Shown: piece by piece, positions 2,753 to 63,746 of the stretch
Numbering within the stretch: the first letter of the stretch is position 1
Layout of the letters: each line of letters begins with the position of its first letter
NCBI GenBank assembly: GCA_947460175.1
Contig: CANHGW010000002.1
Location: forward strand, 124,001-188,000
DNA length: 64,000 nt
Direction: 5' to 3'
Origin: Bacteroidota bacterium
GTDB taxonomy: Bacteria; Bacteroidota; Bacteroidia; Chitinophagales; Chitinophagaceae
Translations under genes and position numbers: made by a program
Notes under the pieces: model-generated
Told to the model about the DNA's origin: nothing
The model's input: the letters and a program-made list of their open reading frames with translations, nothing else
Databases searched by the model: none

Positions 2753-4645
2753 TTATTTTTTCTTTTTAGGTTCAGGTTTTTTGTTGGTAGTTTCTTTTTT
2801 CTTAGAATCTGGTTTTTTTGTATCTACTTTCTTAGTTACTTCTTTAGTTTGTTTAGTTTTGGAATTCAATTTTTCGTCCGATGATTTGGTCGTTTTTTTT
2901 GCATCTACTTTCTTCGTTTCTGTTTTGATATCTTTTTTGGGATCTGCTTTTTTTACTTCACGTACGATGCCTGTTTTCGTTTGTTCCACTTTAGCGTTTT
3001 TCCCTTCAGTTATTTTAGTTTCTACTTTTGGAGTAGGTTTTTTTGTGTCATCTGTAGTTTTAGTTTCTGGTTTAGTTACCTTATTAGGAGGTGTAGTCGC
3101 TTTGGGTTCAACTTTTGGTGCCACAGGTTTTACTTCAGTAGGTATTGGATCTACTTTTTTAGGTTCAGGCAATGGACGATATACAGCTTCGTCAAATCGT
3201 TGTTTCAACACTTTCACAGATTCGCTCACACCTGGTTCGTTATAAGTTCTTTTAGGTGCTTGTGGTATTTCTTTTTTAGGTTCCTCCTTTACAATTTTAG
3301 GTTCTTCTTTTACAGGAGTTGGTTCTTGCTTTACCTCTTCTATTTTAGGGGTATTGCCATAGGTTACTTGTACTAATTTTTCAGGTTCTTTTGTAGGAAC
3401 ACTTTTGGTAATGGGAGTTTCTACTGGCTTGTTTCCTGCAAGTAAGGCTTCGGTACGCCGAGCTTTATCCAAATCTATAATGTCAGGATTCGATGATTTA
3501 GCCACTTCTACTTTGATAGGTTCTTGTATCGGAGCCGTTTTTTCGGTTTCTTGTTGCACCACCACTTTCGTTTCTTCAACTTTTACTGGGATAGGATTGT
3601 TCACTTCCTTAGGTTGTTCTTTTACAGGTTCGTTTGATACAACGGTCTCTGTTGGTTTGGTTTCAGTTGGAGTCGGGGTAGAGGTAATTGTCATTGGCTT
3701 TAACCTTGGTGTGCCATAGGCTTTATATTGAAGCGAAAGTTGTTCACCTGTTTCAGGTTCTTGTCCTGCTTGCATATTGTTGTATGCATACAGATATTCT
3801 AAAAGGATAGCTTCTTTCTGAGAAATCAATTGCATGGTTTCATTGTCTTTTACCACATGAAATTCAACGGTGCCTGTTTTACGTTTTTTTTCTACAAACA
3901 AAAACATATCATTTTCCAAAGGAGCATCTGGTAGATCGTTAATATCCAAAAGGCGTTGATATCGAATGTTATTCATGACAGACTTATCGAGCAATAAATC
4001 ACCTTTTTTTGCCCAAAAACCTTTTAGACCTTTGTAAAATATATTGGGATCTTGTGCTTGATTAAAATTACTGGTATTGTCTTTATCAGGAATTACTTCA
4101 CCTACTGTAGCAAATTTTTTCTTTTGAGCTTCATAAGTGTATTGTTGAAGATTATATTTTTCTACCAAATCAGTCAAGCGTCTTACATAAGCAGGGTTAG
4201 TGGCATAGCCTGCACGCTTGAGTCCACTTGCCCAACCAATATAATCCGTCACTTCCAAATCGAATAAAAAGCTATAACGATTACTCCCTTTCAAAAAGTC
4301 GGAATGATCGATATACGATTGTTCGGGACTTATGTATTTTCGAAAACATTCCTGACGCTTATCATCATCATGTAGAATGGTATCGCCAGTCCATGTGCTT
4401 TTACATTTGATACCAAAATGGTTGTTGCCATTGACAGCCAATTCACTTTTGCCAGCAGTAGATTCATGTATGCCTTGTGCTAATGTAATTGAAGCCGGTA
4501 CGCCTATACGTACTTGCTCTTCGATGGCCAATGTTTTATATTTTTCGATATAGTCTAATACATCCTGATCATTTTGTGCAATCAATTGTAAGTTGCACAT
4601 CAGTAAAAAAAGAAAAGGTACGATTCGTAGTTTCATATTCATCAT
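2753..4645 (-). CDS. Secreted GH73-type glucosaminidase with long Lys/Pro/Thr-rich tail
   Basis: Peptidoglycan hydrolase of the Flg/N-acetylglucosaminidase (GH73) type. Residues 1-24 form a signal peptide; residues about 28-170 hold the catalytic domain, with the likely catalytic Glu61 in QGIHESTAGKSELA and the NNHFGIKC block typical of the family. Residues about 190-310 resemble a pair of degenerate LysM-like segments. From about residue 330 to 630 the protein is a low-complexity tail dominated by K, P, T, E and V, ending in a run of lysines. The ATG at 4645 overlaps the stop codon of the upstream methyltransferase (TAATG arrangement), so translation is probably coupled; another ATG lies at 4636. 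The tail is much longer than in minimal family members and is a candidate wall-binding region. Confidence 0.88.
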   Translation of the reverse strand: MMNMKLRIVPFLFLLMCNLQLIAQNDQDVLDYIEKYKTLAIEEQVRIGVPASITLAQGIHESTAGKSELAVNGNNHFGIKCKSTWTGDTILHDDDKRQECFRKYISPEQSYIDHSDFLKGSNRYSFLFDLEVTDYIGWASGLKRAGYATNPAYVRRLTDLVEKYNLQQYTYEAQKKKFATVGEVIPDKDNTSNFNQAQDPNIFYKGLKGFWAKKGDLLLDKSVMNNIRYQRLLDINDLPDAPLENDMFLFVEKKRKTGTVEFHVVKDNETMQLISQKEAILLEYLYAYNNMQAGQEPETGEQLSLQYKAYGTPRLKPMTITSTPTPTETKPTETVVSNEPVKEQPKEVNNPIPVKVEETKVVVQQETEKTAPIQEPIKVEVAKSSNPDIIDLDKARRTEALLAGNKPVETPITKSVPTKEPEKLVQVTYGNTPKIEEVKQEPTPVKEEPKIVKEEPKKEIPQAPKRTYNEPGVSESVKVLKQRFDEAVYRPLPEPKKVDPIPTEVKPVAPKVEPKATTPPNKVTKPETKTTDDTKKPTPKVETKITEGKNAKVEQTKTGIVREVKKADPKKDIKTETKKVDAKKTTKSSDEKLNSKTKQTKEVTKKVDTKKPDSKKKETTNKKPEPKKKK

Positions 4646-26027: not shown

Positions 26028-27983
26028 TTATTGTGCAATCCAAAGTTCTGGGTTCACCTTAAATGATGATCCATTGGCACCTACTTTCCATACCTGGAAA
26101 TTAATTTGTGTATTGCCATCTTCATCGGTTAATACAGTGCCTATAGTTTGTTTGGTAGAAAGTTTCATACCTTTCGTTACCATTACTTTATCGAGTTTGG
26201 CATACACTGTATAGTATGACCCATGATTAACCAATACAGTTTGCCCTGCAGCTCCTGGTATACTTATGATTGATGCTACTTCACCTCCAAATACAGCTCT
26301 TGCTCTTGCACCTCGGCTGGTTTTAATATCGATGCCATAGTTTTCTGTGGTGATATTAAACAGTGGATGTTTGTTTTTTCCAAAATGTTCTACTACATAA
26401 CCCTTTTCTACAGGCCAAGGCAATCTTCCACGACTCGACTCAAAGTTGTTTGCAATTTCTTGTTCCATGGGAGTAAGAGAAAATTTGTAATCATCTTTTT
26501 CAAATGTCTTTACATTCGATCGATTTACAGGTGCTGCCGGACGAGAATCATTATTTTTTGTGTTGCTACCACTGCCAGTGTTTAAAGTAACATTACCATA
26601 TCGATCTTTCTCAGCCAAGTCAGGTATGTATCTTGGATTACTATAATTACTAGCGGTCATGCGTGCTTGTTCACGTTCTTGACGTTTCTTTTCTTCGGTA
26701 AGTCTACGTTGTTCTTCTTCCTGACGTTGCTTTTGAGCAACTAATTTACGTTGTTCTTCTTCTTGTCGTTGTTTTTGAGCTACCAGTTTACGTTGTTCTT
26801 CTTCTTGTCTATCCTTTTCAATTGCGAGTTGTTTTTCGCGTTCAATACGTTTAGCTTCTGCCATTTGGGATGCTTTCCGTTCGGCTTCTTCTCTTTTTTT
26901 ACGTTCAATAGCTAAGGCACGTTCACGATCTTCTCGATCTTTTTTCTCTTGGGCTAGTCTACGTTCGTTTTCTTCTTGTTGTTTTTTTGCAAGCGCCAAC
27001 TTACGTTCGTTTTCTTCTTGTTTTTGTTTTTCCAAGGCTACTTTACGCTCATACTCTTCACGACGTTTTTTCTCTATAGCAGCTTCTTCTTGACTTTTTT
27101 TCTGTTGTGCTAATTTACGATCTTGATCCAATTTTAATTTACGAAGACGTTCTTGATCTAATTTTTCTTGCATGGCACGTTTACGTGCAATATCAATTTC
27201 ACGTTGGATAGCGGCAGATATAGCTCGGTTCAAGTCTTCTGCTGCCTTTTTTTTCATGGCTAATCCTGCAATTAAATCTTTTTCTTTTCCTTTTAATTCA
27301 GATACAACCTTGTCTTTCTCAGCTGTTTCAGATTCTAGTATTTTCTTTTGTTGTTCTTGTGCTTGAAGTACATAATCTTTCTTTTGTTTTTCAATATTCA
27401 ATACAGTTATCTTGTTCGACAATTGTTGACTTGCAGATGTTATTTTAAGCGCTTGGTCTGCACGATATCCTCTGTATTGTTTTACGTATTGCAATCGTCG
27501 TATGGCGTCGTTGAATGTGCTAGCCGAAAATAAAAAAACGATTAAATCAGAAGAAGTTTTATTTTTATAAGTATAGCGCACCATTTGAGCATATTGCTCT
27601 TTGAGTGTATCAAGTTGGGTTCTTAGTACTTGTACATCTTTATTGGCAGTGTTTATATTTTCTTCAATGTATCGAATCTCATTGTTGATATTCGAAATCA
27701 AGGATTGTCTTGCTGATAGTTTTGACTGAAGTGCTTGTAACTGCGAAAGGGTTGCTTTTTTATCTTGTCGGAGGACGGCTAATTCATTTTGCGTTCGCTT
27801 AATCTCCTCCATAATAGATAAGCGCTGACTTTCAAGTTGCTCTCTGGATTGTAATTTGAGTGTTTCCTTTACTTGTATTTTGTTTGTTGCAGTTGGCTTA
27901 GCTTTTGATTTGTTTTTTTGAGCATACGTTGTATTACTCAAAAAGAGAAATAGGATAAAGCAGTATTTGATTCTAAGTAACAA
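26028..27983 (-). CDS. EnvC-like murein hydrolase activator with degenerate LytM domain
   Basis: Exported protein of 651 residues. Signal peptide to about 21, then long coiled coils: one at about 38-250 as in EnvC/PcsB, followed by an unusually long stretch of (E/Q)(E/R)KR-type heptads at about 260-455, with near-repeats such as KQRQEEEQRKL. The C-terminal 110 residues are an M23/LytM fold (YGIDIKTSRGARARAVFGGEVASI). The usual zinc ligands are changed: NYGIDI stands where HxGxDI is expected and VYAKL where YAHL is expected. This suggests an activator of amidases and cell division rather than a hydrolase. Confidence 0.85.
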   Translation of the reverse strand: MLLRIKYCFILFLFLSNTTYAQKNKSKAKPTATNKIQVKETLKLQSREQLESQRLSIMEEIKRTQNELAVLRQDKKATLSQLQALQSKLSARQSLISNINNEIRYIEENINTANKDVQVLRTQLDTLKEQYAQMVRYTYKNKTSSDLIVFLFSASTFNDAIRRLQYVKQYRGYRADQALKITSASQQLSNKITVLNIEKQKKDYVLQAQEQQKKILESETAEKDKVVSELKGKEKDLIAGLAMKKKAAEDLNRAISAAIQREIDIARKRAMQEKLDQERLRKLKLDQDRKLAQQKKSQEEAAIEKKRREEYERKVALEKQKQEENERKLALAKKQQEENERRLAQEKKDREDRERALAIERKKREEAERKASQMAEAKRIEREKQLAIEKDRQEEEQRKLVAQKQRQEEEQRKLVAQKQRQEEEQRRLTEEKKRQEREQARMTASNYSNPRYIPDLAEKDRYGNVTLNTGSGSNTKNNDSRPAAPVNRSNVKTFEKDDYKFSLTPMEQEIANNFESSRGRLPWPVEKGYVVEHFGKNKHPLFNITTENYGIDIKTSRGARARAVFGGEVASIISIPGAAGQTVLVNHGSYYTVYAKLDKVMVTKGMKLSTKQTIGTVLTDEDGNTQINFQVWKVGANGSSFKVNPELWIAQ

Positions 27984-59159: not shown

Positions 59160-60593
59160 TTAATTGCAGTATTTTTTAATTTTATCGTAGGCATCCTCAA
59201 AACCTTGTTCACCCGCCTTACTGAAATCTAAACATGCACTTTCTTTCATGTTCATTTCTAATTTTACATGACCTCGCATCCAATAGCAGTAAGGATTATC
59301 TGACTTTAGCACTATAGCTGAATCTAAATCATGAAGTGATGCAGCATTTTGAGCTATAATATATTTAGAAACAGCTCGCAATTCGTAATATTTGGCTAAT
59401 TCTTCAGTTTCATCAATCAAAGCTCTATTATATCTCGGAAGGTTAACTGATGTGCTTGGTTTTATTAAATTAGTATTAACTTTATTAGTATATAAATATA
59501 TGGCTCTATTTAAATCTTCAATTGATCCCATGTAGTCTTTCAATTTATATTTCGCTTCAGATCTTTCAGATAGGAATTGAGCATGCCATCTATCTTTTGT
59601 TATAAAATATATCCTAAGATAATCATGTTCATTGGTCAATTCTAAGTTGCTTTCTATTAATGTGATTATTTTACTTAAATCGATAACTGACTTGAAATAA
59701 TCATTCATATTGTGCGAATAAATAAATGCGCGCTTACTATATGACATTATTAAAGTTTCAAAATAGTTGATATCTTCTTTAGGTAATAACTCAATTTTCT
59801 TAGATAAGTCTTTTATTGCTGTAGAATAATATCCATATTCTACACTTAGATAAATTTGGGAATTAACTGCATGTATTAATCTATCAAAATCATTGTTTAA
59901 ATATCTTATAAAATTCTCAAGGTCACTATATGCCTCCTTATAACATTTGTACTTACTATTCAGATACGACCTTGATTCATATAAAATTAATATTGAAGTT
60001 GTATCCCTATTTTTTTTAGATGAATTTATATCCATATCAATTGCTAAAAGTTCTTTATGGTATTCTGGATACATTACAGATTTAGGCTGTAATTCCTTAG
60101 TTGACTTCAGAGGCTTACGGGATATATCTTTTTTCCCAATTACCAAGGTGTTCTCATCATAATTAAAAGTAAATTCTCCTAATTTTTGCAATAAAGATTG
60201 ACCTAGCAATAATGAGGCTGATTGATTCTTTAGTATTACGGCTTCAACATTTTCCAATTCATATTCGCCTATCATTATTTTCTTCAAAAGAACTTTTTTT
60301 GCATCAATTACGCTACCATCTGCAATTGTGTATTTTCCGCTGCCAATTATATCACTTTCTGATAAAAAGCCATTTTTAAACATATATTCTGCTTCAATTG
60401 ATGTTAAGGATACTATACTTGCCCCTGTATCAAAAATGAAGTTCATCGATACACCATTAACCTTGCAAGGAACATGATAAACACCATTTCTTTTTAAAAG
60501 TTTGATTTTGCTCTGAGCTAAGGATTGCTCATTTTGATGAAGTATTAGAATTGTTAGTAAAAAGAATATCACTTTAATACTTCTAGAAGTCAT
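59160..60593 (-). CDS. Secreted retropepsin-like aspartic protease with TPR region
   Basis: The chosen ATG (60593) gives a signal peptide ending SLAQ; alternatives at 60626 and 60710 lengthen the N-terminus. Residues about 35-160 are a retropepsin-like domain: FDTGASIVSL holds the catalytic Asp, then a flap-like strand (KYTIADGSVIDAKKV) and LLGQSLLQKLGEFTFNYDENTLVIG. Such domains are found in many single-copy exported proteins. From about 200 to 475 are TPR-like helices (MGSIEDLNRAIYLYTNK, HDLDSAIVLKSDNPYCYWMRG). Target unknown. The upstream gap to 60934 has a hairpin (see below) but no other gene. Confidence 0.78.
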   Translation of the reverse strand: MTSRSIKVIFFLLTILILHQNEQSLAQSKIKLLKRNGVYHVPCKVNGVSMNFIFDTGASIVSLTSIEAEYMFKNGFLSESDIIGSGKYTIADGSVIDAKKVLLKKIMIGEYELENVEAVILKNQSASLLLGQSLLQKLGEFTFNYDENTLVIGKKDISRKPLKSTKELQPKSVMYPEYHKELLAIDMDINSSKKNRDTTSILILYESRSYLNSKYKCYKEAYSDLENFIRYLNNDFDRLIHAVNSQIYLSVEYGYYSTAIKDLSKKIELLPKEDINYFETLIMSYSKRAFIYSHNMNDYFKSVIDLSKIITLIESNLELTNEHDYLRIYFITKDRWHAQFLSERSEAKYKLKDYMGSIEDLNRAIYLYTNKVNTNLIKPSTSVNLPRYNRALIDETEELAKYYELRAVSKYIIAQNAASLHDLDSAIVLKSDNPYCYWMRGHVKLEMNMKESACLDFSKAGEQGFEDAYDKIKKYCN

Positions 60594-60750
60594 TTTTAGA
60601 TAAGCATCAGTGAGTACAGCTTTCATTTTAATTCCTTTTTTAAGTTTAGTCTTTGCTAGTTGACAGCTAAAGTGCCAACCTAGGCTGAACAAAGATAGAG
60701 GAAAAAGCATGACATTTATTCCTATATCTAAAAAGATTAATTACTGTTCA

Positions 60751-62450: not shown

Positions 62451-62544
62451 TTAGTTTGAATATTGAAGTGAGTTGGTGATTTAGAATACATGTGAAAATT
62501 ACTAGTTTATTTACACAGATGTTTTACTCCAATATTCAAATTAC
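62451..62544. repeat. Imperfect 19-bp inverted repeat
   Basis: The arms at 62451-62469 and 62526-62544 agree at 16 of 19 positions, with an 11-base exact core (TTTGAATATTG at 62455-62465; its complement at 62530-62540). The rest of 62272-62540 has nothing else. Confidence 0.5.
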
Positions 62545-63008
62545 AACTTCCTTTTTCCCTTCCCTTTTTTAGGCATCATAGGGCTGAGTTGTCGGGCGGC
62601 TTCTTGAGCGCCAAGTACGTTTTGAGTAGCTGCTGCTTGGCAATATTTGTAAAAGTCGAGTGCGGTGCTTACGCTTTCGTTTTCGAGGGCTATTACGGTA
62701 TCGTTTATGGCTTGTTGCAATTTTTTAACCTGTATCAGTATATCACCCAAAAACTGAAAATCTTGTACATCCTTTTCAAACTCAGCTTGATTAAAATAGG
62801 GCGGTAGGATATGTGGATTTTGTCGGGTAAGTTCCAAGGCAGTGGTAATAAAAGCATGCGTGCGAGCACCTAGTCTAAGGTGTTTGCGTTTTTCGCTAGG
62901 CGTAAGTTGTACCAAAAACGACATGCTCGTTTCGATGTCTGAAAGCATGGTGAGCCATGCTTGATGTTGTACATCGGTAATACCGATGGAAAGGTTATTG
63001 TAAGGCAT
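62541..63008 (-). CDS. Hypothetical protein, full-length member of the MPYxNL family
   Basis: 155 residues, not recognised. Mostly helical; starts MPYNNLSIGITDVQHQAW, then LTPSEKRKHLRLGARTHAFITTALELTRQNPHILPPYFNQAEFEKDVQDF and a basic tail (MMPKKGKGKRKL). No signal or membrane segment. A broken paralogue faces it across the repeat array. Family of unknown function. Confidence 0.65.
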   Translation of the reverse strand: MPYNNLSIGITDVQHQAWLTMLSDIETSMSFLVQLTPSEKRKHLRLGARTHAFITTALELTRQNPHILPPYFNQAEFEKDVQDFQFLGDILIQVKKLQQAINDTVIALENESVSTALDFYKYCQAAATQNVLGAQEAARQLSPMMPKKGKGKRKL

Positions 63009-63080: not shown

Positions 63081-63271
63081 TGCCAAACTTTGCAAAAATG
63101 TGCAATGCAATTGCACATAGGGTGCAATTGCATTGCAGAAATCTGCAATTGCATTACATGAGTGGTGCAATACAATTGCACCACTCGTGCCAAATTTCGC
63201 AGAAAGTTGCAATGCAAATGCACCATCAGTGCCAAACTTTGCACACATGGTGTAAAGCTTTGCACCATCTG
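63081..63271. repeat. Tandem array of nine 21-22 bp units (TGCnAA...TTGCA)
   Basis: Unit starts by eye: 63081, 63102, 63123, 63144 (22), 63166 (22), 63188, 63209, 63230, 63251. The best-conserved units begin TGCCAAACTTTGCA. Within it lie perfect inverted repeats of 16 bases (63101-63116 with 63122-63137) and 12 bases (63160-63171 with 63175-63186). The frames open on both strands through the array are a by-product of the repeat, not genes. Confidence 0.85.
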
Positions 63272-63410
63272 TGTAATGTTGGACTTTTTTTTCTTAAAAA
63301 TTTCTTAAAAAACAGTCCAAATTGTTTTCATTTTTTTACTACGATATACAAGCTATGTAATTTTAATTGATAAATTAATTTTCTTTTTTAACACTTAAAA
63401 ACACCTACGT

Positions 63411-63746
63411 ATGCCGTACCAAAATTTAACGTCTACATTAGACACCGCAGCAGTCGCACCGATTATGACTAGCCTAGCCACTATGCAAACCACACTTGCG
63501 CCGCATAGCATCAACCTTACACCCGATGAAATAACGAGGATGTTTAAGATGAGCATTAATCGTCAATCGCTTGGTAGTCGGTCTATCCAAATAGCCGAAG
63601 CAAATCCTACTTTGAAACTCGCTTAACACAACCTAAATGCAACCAAACAAGACAATGAACGCTATATCAATTTATTGGCTATAGAAATGAAACTTAAAGT
63701 TCTGTTTCAAGGTATAGAATATTCATGCATGTCTTCAGGTAGCTAA
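63411..63746 (+). pseudogene. MPYxNL-family paralogue broken by an in-frame stop
   Basis: The first 71 codons, MPYQNLTSTLDTAAVAP... to LKLA, resemble the N-terminal half of the protein at 62541-63008 (MPYxNL start, LTPxE, SLGSRSIQIAEANPTL against RTHAFITTALELTRQNPHIL). The TAA at 63624-63626 is followed in the same frame by 39 further codons (NATKQDNERYINLLAIEMKL...) that can be aligned to the next part of that protein, until TAA at 63744-63746. So a nonsense mutation probably interrupts the gene, although a short functional product is possible. Confidence 0.6.

Follow-up and report, generated by a model that had tools for sequence, protein, structure and literature searches.

Iteron arrays of plasmid replicons lie next to a gene and consist of tandem sites spaced by whole helix turns, and centromeres of the SopC or parS type consist of an array of inverted half-sites beside the gene of an HTH protein. 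Lambda-repressor-like autoregulators use a few sites, and type III toxin-antitoxin systems carry tandem repeats by a small gene, with a repeat RNA as the antitoxin. As far as we searched, the sole direct prior art for the repeat class treated here is the paper by Subirana and Messeguer (PMC8161180), which describes 'enigmatic' bacterial tandem repeats with a constant size of 20-23 nt, equal to two helix turns, and a sequence that varies within and between species. According to the same paper, these repeats occur in many bacterial groups, including Cyanobacteria, and have no obvious function, the authors proposing either a protein that polymerises on DNA or a small RNA.

Here we describe an array of this kind in a window of 64,000 nucleotides from a Bacteroidota genome, together with two protein families: A, formed by helical proteins of about 155 aa, and B, an HTH protein that is the candidate reader of the array in a subset of loci. 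The A-linked arrays have the same size class and the same variability of letters as the repeats of Subirana and Messeguer; the passages of that paper (PMC8161180) covered here tie no gene family to its non-coding 20-21 nt repeats and report no reader or palindromy, whereas here there is family A and, in the subset, the HTH candidate. Our literature search (the same authors' J Bacteriol 2020 paper lay outside its scope) returned no title or abstract tying such arrays to a gene family, and the link of the repeat class to A and B is new as far as our searches go.

Compared with the known systems, the A-linked arrays are like iterons in being helix-turn-spaced tandem sites beside a gene, but no Rep initiator was noticed by eye among the ORFs listed, the letters are private to each locus and the neighbouring A has no recognised DNA-binding fold. 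The B-type module is like SopC and parS in that an inverted half-site array lies next to an HTH gene; unlike them, no ParA/ParM-type NTPase was noticed at the loci in a by-eye reading of the ORFs listed. The predicted fold of B, whose gene is preceded by inverted sites, recalls the autoregulators P22 c2, HipB, the C-proteins and SinR, from which the module differs by about ten phased sites, instead of a few, and by the conserved neighbour A. The repeat array beside a small gene also resembles ToxIN, a type III toxin-antitoxin system; here, however, the unit of 21/22 bp fits DNA phasing, the array can lie on either side of the gene and there is no consistent RNA wobble signal. The geometry of the module is one already known from arrays of operators, iterons and centromeres.

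The window array and its flanking genes

The array lies at positions 63081-63277, with no strand assigned, and consists of alternating inverted half-sites (TGCAA / TTGCA) seen by inspection, TRF and shuffles. From the first half-site, TGCCAA at 63081, to the last, TGTAA at 63276, the orientation alternates at a spacing of about 10-11 bp. The nine units of 21-22 bp counted in the original prediction were recovered as nine full units and part of a tenth, and its perfect 16-bp and 12-bp palindromes were found as dyad arms, the former at 63101-63137 with 5 nt between the arms and the latter at 63160-63186 with 3 nt between them. The longest gap-free even palindrome measures 10 bp (TGCAATTGCA) and is present three times. 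TRF splits the array into two pieces with periods of 43 and 21, and when the region was shuffled 500 times, the weaker TRF score of 65 was never reached at the array periods (shuffle maximum, 56). Four dyad axes pair at 7/8 positions or more, against a mean of 0.15 and a maximum of 2 in 1000 shuffles. Since the shuffles never reach either the TRF score or the axis count, a chance origin was set aside: the window array is real, and the module to which it belongs is widespread.

The intact family A gene (155 aa, 62541..63008, minus strand) is supported by its ORF, by family members in its own genome and by an AlphaFold2 model, and the second family A gene (63411..63626, plus strand) is an ORF that stops after 71 aa, with degraded similarity continuing to about 63863. 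That both flanking genes belong to one family and that one of them is broken had been read correctly from the letters, as a single profile of family A matches the two. A paralogue of the broken gene, of 164 aa, exists in the same genome (L005:3589-4083), where family A gives four matches with a single protein query and five with the profile. L005 holds a second divergent A pair around a 22-bp array, TTGACC-N5-GGTCAA-N5, and at L006, another locus of this genome, a third A copy precedes a 22-bp array built on AATACG/CGTATT half-sites, beyond which lies an HTH gene. Through a common CAATT-N-CATTG core, the arrays of the window and of L005 score 20 against each other (null median 9, 99th percentile 24), and the L006 array scores 7 against each of them. 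These two arrays are thus not wholly unlike in their letters, and we counted this against the module reading. There is no B beside the window array, the B matches in this genome, a strong one and a weak one, being confined to C102, and no Rep family in Pfam or NCBIfam was found for the window A, the right-hand remnant or three neighbouring ORFs.

The AlphaFold2 model of the window A protein (pLDDT 91.4, pTM 0.72, 58-row alignment) is predicted to be all-helical, with one helix of 55 residues spanning residues 74-128. The family had been presented as one without a known name, and it stays so, with no convincing relative in Pfam, NCBIfam or the PDB sequences. Among 58 A members, the best Pfam E-value was 3.7e-4 and no Pfam family was matched at E<=0.1 by more than 12/58, while NCBIfam matched 0/58 at E<=0.001. 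No toxin family in Pfam or NCBIfam is common to the 58 members, one of which matched Ntox25 at E 0.042. Foldseek searches with the model gave nothing at E<=0.001 in PDB and BFVD, and the structural matches from VIA-align (best Z 5.8 over 53 residues) were rejected as within the chance range for helical models; such a failure to match A structurally does not make its fold new. With dN/dS values of 0.05-0.18 in nine pairs, one of them with saturated dS, the family is under purifying selection.

Period and letters of the arrays beside family A genes

Family A was found by profile in 38/298 genomes of the order (E<=1e-5) and, with a broader profile, in 31/395 genomes of the phylum (E<=1e-6). A scan of named genomes retained 80/92 confirmed A loci, with hosts that include Flavobacterium, Aquimarina, Kordia, Niabella, Carboxylicivirga, filamentous Cyanobacteria and Planctomycetaceae, and the combination of A and array is found in Bacteroidota, Cyanobacteria and Planctomycetes.

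Array and gene family do co-occur, a check put forward with the original prediction. There were 148 genes with at least 500 bp on both sides among 181 unique A genes, and 88 of these 148 have a 21/22-type TRF array within 600 bp, compared with 117 of 4000 random positions; the arrays are upstream of 38 genes and downstream of 52 (two genes are in both counts). The 400 kb that supplied the control positions, from 13 of the same genomes, contain only 11 such TRF rows, and because these positions overlap, the Fisher p of 2e-83 is nominal. In a shuffle-based lag test, with two flanks per A gene and one flank per control window, a 21/22-bp-period array was detected at 113/159 A genes (36 upstream, 78 downstream) against 6/300 control flanks. 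A phylum-wide sample gave 28/38, in partial overlap with the first set (its L220 and L258 genes are the L129 and L052 genes), and array signal by TRF or lag was present in 6/7 cyanobacterial and 3/3 planctomycete loci. We take these counts to show that A genes and 21/22-bp arrays are associated.

TRF periods near A peak at 21 (86 rows), 22 (34), 42 (27) and 63 (13), a peak that is absent from the control rows. For 82 arrays, length has a median of 8.6 units (typically 5-11, up to about 24), the median distance is 157 bp from the A start codon or 100 bp from the A stop, and the consensus unit has dyad symmetry at p<0.05 in 44, the other 38 being without significance. The lag test found no array at 46/159 A genes, which we counted against the module reading, and none in a clade of A proteins with MASFRSF-like starts (L056, L059, L061, L092, L094, L099 and L106).

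Comparison of the arrays across loci shows a fixed period, and often a recurrent dyad symmetry, with unit letters that vary from one locus to another. The original prediction had asked for conservation in relatives, and what relatives keep is the array and its 21/22-bp spacing, but mostly not its letters. When the A proteins are at least 80% identical, 15/21 pairs score above the 99th null percentile of array similarity (109 arrays), or 15/19 without two pairs that are two arrays of one gene (L234, L242); below 60% identity, only 1-8% of the pairs per identity bin exceed it. There are sharp departures even among close relatives. Three copies in a single planctomycete assembly (L188 versus L197/L198) have two unrelated arrays beside A proteins that share about 90% identity or more, again counted against the module reading, and L087 and L088, likewise copies in one genome, have A proteins 79% identical and entirely different arrays. 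In the L062/L103 and L149/L150 comparisons the flanks can be aligned and the intervening stretch cannot, L149 and L150 holding at most decayed repeats by eye.

An HTH protein as candidate reader

Clustering of the neighbouring genes found the HTH protein B at 22 of the first 166 loci. The usual order is A, array and B on one strand, with L055 presenting A and a B-like gene in divergent orientation, and the gap from the array to the B start is 35-93 bp in 13/14 loci measured and 348 bp in the other. The AlphaFold2 model of B (pLDDT 79.1) is predicted to contain a lambda-repressor-like domain and a long C-terminal helix. Foldseek relates it to P22 c2, HipB, SinR and C-proteins with probability 1.00, the best E-value of any match being 0.016 and none reaching E<=0.001, and Pfam HTH_3 was matched in one of three B proteins scanned (E 0.027). 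The presence of B also goes with the period, which is 22 in 11/12 arrays beside B and in 10/70 other arrays (p 2.6e-7); the sole exception, L138, is a wrong array call in which an upstream repeat was used.

For 17 loci with A, an array region and B (L174, with a frame-shifted A, was excluded from 18), array similarity correlates with similarity in the recognition-helix stretch of B (r 0.638, p 2e-4, the floor for 5000 permutations). In partial Mantel tests the correlation is maintained given A (r 0.609, p 2e-4) and given the whole of B (r 0.419, p 4e-4), while array and A are uncorrelated given B (r -0.10, p 0.75). At the loci where TRF detected hardly anything or nothing (L122, L124, L127, L130 and L133), the limits of the array were drawn manually, and at L128, L129 and L138 they were extended manually. 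As far as covariation can show it, the array letters at B loci track the recognition helix of B and not A. The guess that the array could be one of operators was a good one, with letters that follow the recognition helix where an HTH gene adjoins. We rejected A as a general sequence-specific reader, as at B loci it adds nothing once B is known; at loci lacking B, array and A correlate only weakly (r 0.114, p 0.03).

The correspondence can be read in individual helices and half-sites: PTTLNQYF-like helices of B go with AACCAA half-sites (L123, L127, L132 and L148), and VNxTTISRYF helices go with TACG half-sites (L006 and L140). A gap in this pattern is formed by L122 and L124, which have a PTTLNQYF-like helix, of the AACCAA type, and no clear array. 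Between A and B of L124, at 3046-3235, where a 22-bp array would be expected, there is a 28-bp tandem repeat (CGTCATTGCGAGG...).

B can also have its own upstream array with no A within 1.5 kb (L261 1281-1860), so A is not needed for the array; two less clear cases with no A nearby are L274 1495-1959 and L280 726-1353, the latter at a contig start. A small conserved protein of about 80-106 aa is found near A at L058, L062, L096, L098, L103 and L108, most of them with a 21-bp array. A Pfam scan of two of these six proteins gave no family at its cut-off, and the protein is a possible alternative reader.

A proposed self-addressed module and its alternatives

Our best reading, which we hold to be somewhat probable, is a self-addressed nucleoprotein module, with an HTH reader that assembles cooperatively next to the gene encoding it, on operators in phase with the helix. 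The window would contain one copy of an accessory module of about 1 kb, composed of the helical protein A and a private array of operator-like sites at a fixed spacing of 21 or 22 bp, that is, two helix turns. Mechanistically, dimers of B, with the C-terminal helix as a zipper, would occupy one half-site after another along a single face of the DNA, and their cooperative assembly would build a phased nucleoprotein array immediately upstream of the B gene; we infer the cooperative assembly from the phased inverted half-sites, the HTH candidate with its putative zipper and the position of the array upstream of B. The module would thereby recognise and regulate itself, the divergent array sequences would prevent cross-talk among the copies in one genome, and A would be an effector or structural partner. 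In copies without B, including that of the window, the same job would be done by another reader, either a trans-acting protein or A itself. A wider proposal, which we make tentatively and with some doubt, is that of a horizontally spreading class of self-addressed modules, formed by A and a private two-turn array that is rewritten to match the reader of each copy. On the whole, the interpretation given in the original prediction is partly supported.

If this proposal is true, the rewriting of arrays would let many orthogonal copies of the module coexist in one genome and would explain at least part of the bacterial repeats of 20-23 nt with constant size and variable sequence, and the modules may insulate or carry accessory genes, defence genes included. 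The tie of these repeats to a conserved protein family and, in a subset, to an HTH protein whose recognition helix predicts their letters makes the open question of the repeats accessible at the bench. The loci also provide candidate pairs of operator and reader, orthogonal to one another and supplied by nature, as well as an example of rapid turnover of DNA sequence with the geometry fixed.

Other roles for the array were weighed against the self-addressed module. The array could be transcribed as a repeat RNA, acting like a type III antitoxin or soaking up small RNAs as a sponge, and A would then be the toxin or a partner; tandem repeats by a small gene are indeed the type III layout. Subirana and Messeguer (PMC8161180) also discuss small RNAs. 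In the downstream arrays, G-T and A-C dyad mismatches stand at 23:19 against 0.67:1 from composition, an apparent slight G-T excess, but the upstream arrays give 25:25 against 1.15:1 and no such excess; moreover, the two-turn period with mixed 21/22 units fits DNA phasing, the arrays occur on either side of A (n=148) and, where B is present, their letters follow its recognition helix, making an RNA role very unlikely. A chromosomal partition or origin-like site, with A and B as adaptors, we regard as quite unlikely. Its geometry does fit, with phased inverted half-sites, a candidate HTH reader and about ten repeats: tandem sites at integral helix turns, as in iteron replicons, are present in the window array and in the family arrays, as are the repeated inverted sites of ParABS and ParMRC, B being the putative adaptor by covariation in 17 loci. 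The iteron-like character noted originally holds to this extent, but several copies exist per genome, amid chromosomal genes, and reading by eye the ORFs listed beside the arrays we noticed no Par NTPase, Rep initiator or other replication or partition protein.

We give almost no credence to a minisatellite without function produced by slippage, the outcome that had been named as refuting the original prediction. Unit number and higher-order period do vary among arrays, yet local slippage alone fails to account for a period that stays constant while the letters are unrelated, next to one gene family in three phyla, at a frequency far from that of the control flanks, and related units are mostly kept among close A relatives; from the recurrence of the arrays and their correlation with the reader helix, we take it as refuted. 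A phage origin, among the explanations initially left open, also found no backing: of the 6 pattern matches obtained by scanning viral contigs with one pattern from the window-clade alignment A2, none was confirmed, and the 3 families returned by PHROGs were each matched by 1/58 A members (best E 0.0028).

We consider it unlikely, though less so, that the module is a mobile element in which the array serves for recombination or for recognition of the ends and A is an accessory factor, the whole moving and carrying or attracting cargo such as defence genes. Several observations point in this direction. Family A is patchy and multi-copy in the order and the phylum, and blocks of A and array of about 1.0-1.2 kb, 86-90% identical, are found at different sites of one assembly (L197/L198, L087/L089). 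In two related genomes a type I-B CRISPR locus with Cas7b is interrupted in antisense, in the interval from cas1 to its neighbouring gene, by the module, an A gene with a 43/64-lag array (L247 7810-8787, L248 3030-4009); by our own reading of its sequence, that neighbouring gene, of 171 aa, would be cas4. Some modules, such as these two, look inserted. Convergent A pairs in genomes G005 and G126 bracket genes of CBASS (L116, a cyclase with a patatin effector), PDC-S49 (L115) and type III R-M (L065, with a DrmD-like helicase), while other A pairs are directly adjacent (L064, L066). On the other side, the larger recurrent clusters of neighbours include no transposase, integrase or relaxase, A has none of these domains in Pfam or NCBIfam, many of the module neighbours listed are ordinary chromosomal genes, L253 and L255 hold the module among the same neighbours, and neither terminal repeats nor duplications of a target could be established.

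With PADLOC at E<=1e-30, at least 12/124 module neighbours were matched, a lower bound because 20 of the 124 were picked by eye for per-protein scans, against at most 3/124 controls, a ceiling taken from family tallies (p 0.03). Without two ambiguous matches, a cysteine desulfurase of the DndA/IscS type and a kinase, p becomes 0.08. The neighbours used were 124 of 134 (three of the ten dropped are the L248 set, orthologous to that of L247), and the controls were 124 of 140 sampled proteins, largely from different genomes. A general membership in defence islands, suggested by L065, L115, L116 and L066, was rejected given the ordinary neighbours elsewhere and this borderline comparison, and for the same reasons we treat the mobility of the module and its linkage to defence as leads.

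Two further features were observed in the window itself: TRF detects 42-bp tandem repeats at 26701-27059, and in an ORF of 516 aa on the minus strand (59160-60710) Pfam recognises the aspartyl protease domain PF13975 (E 3.6e-14).
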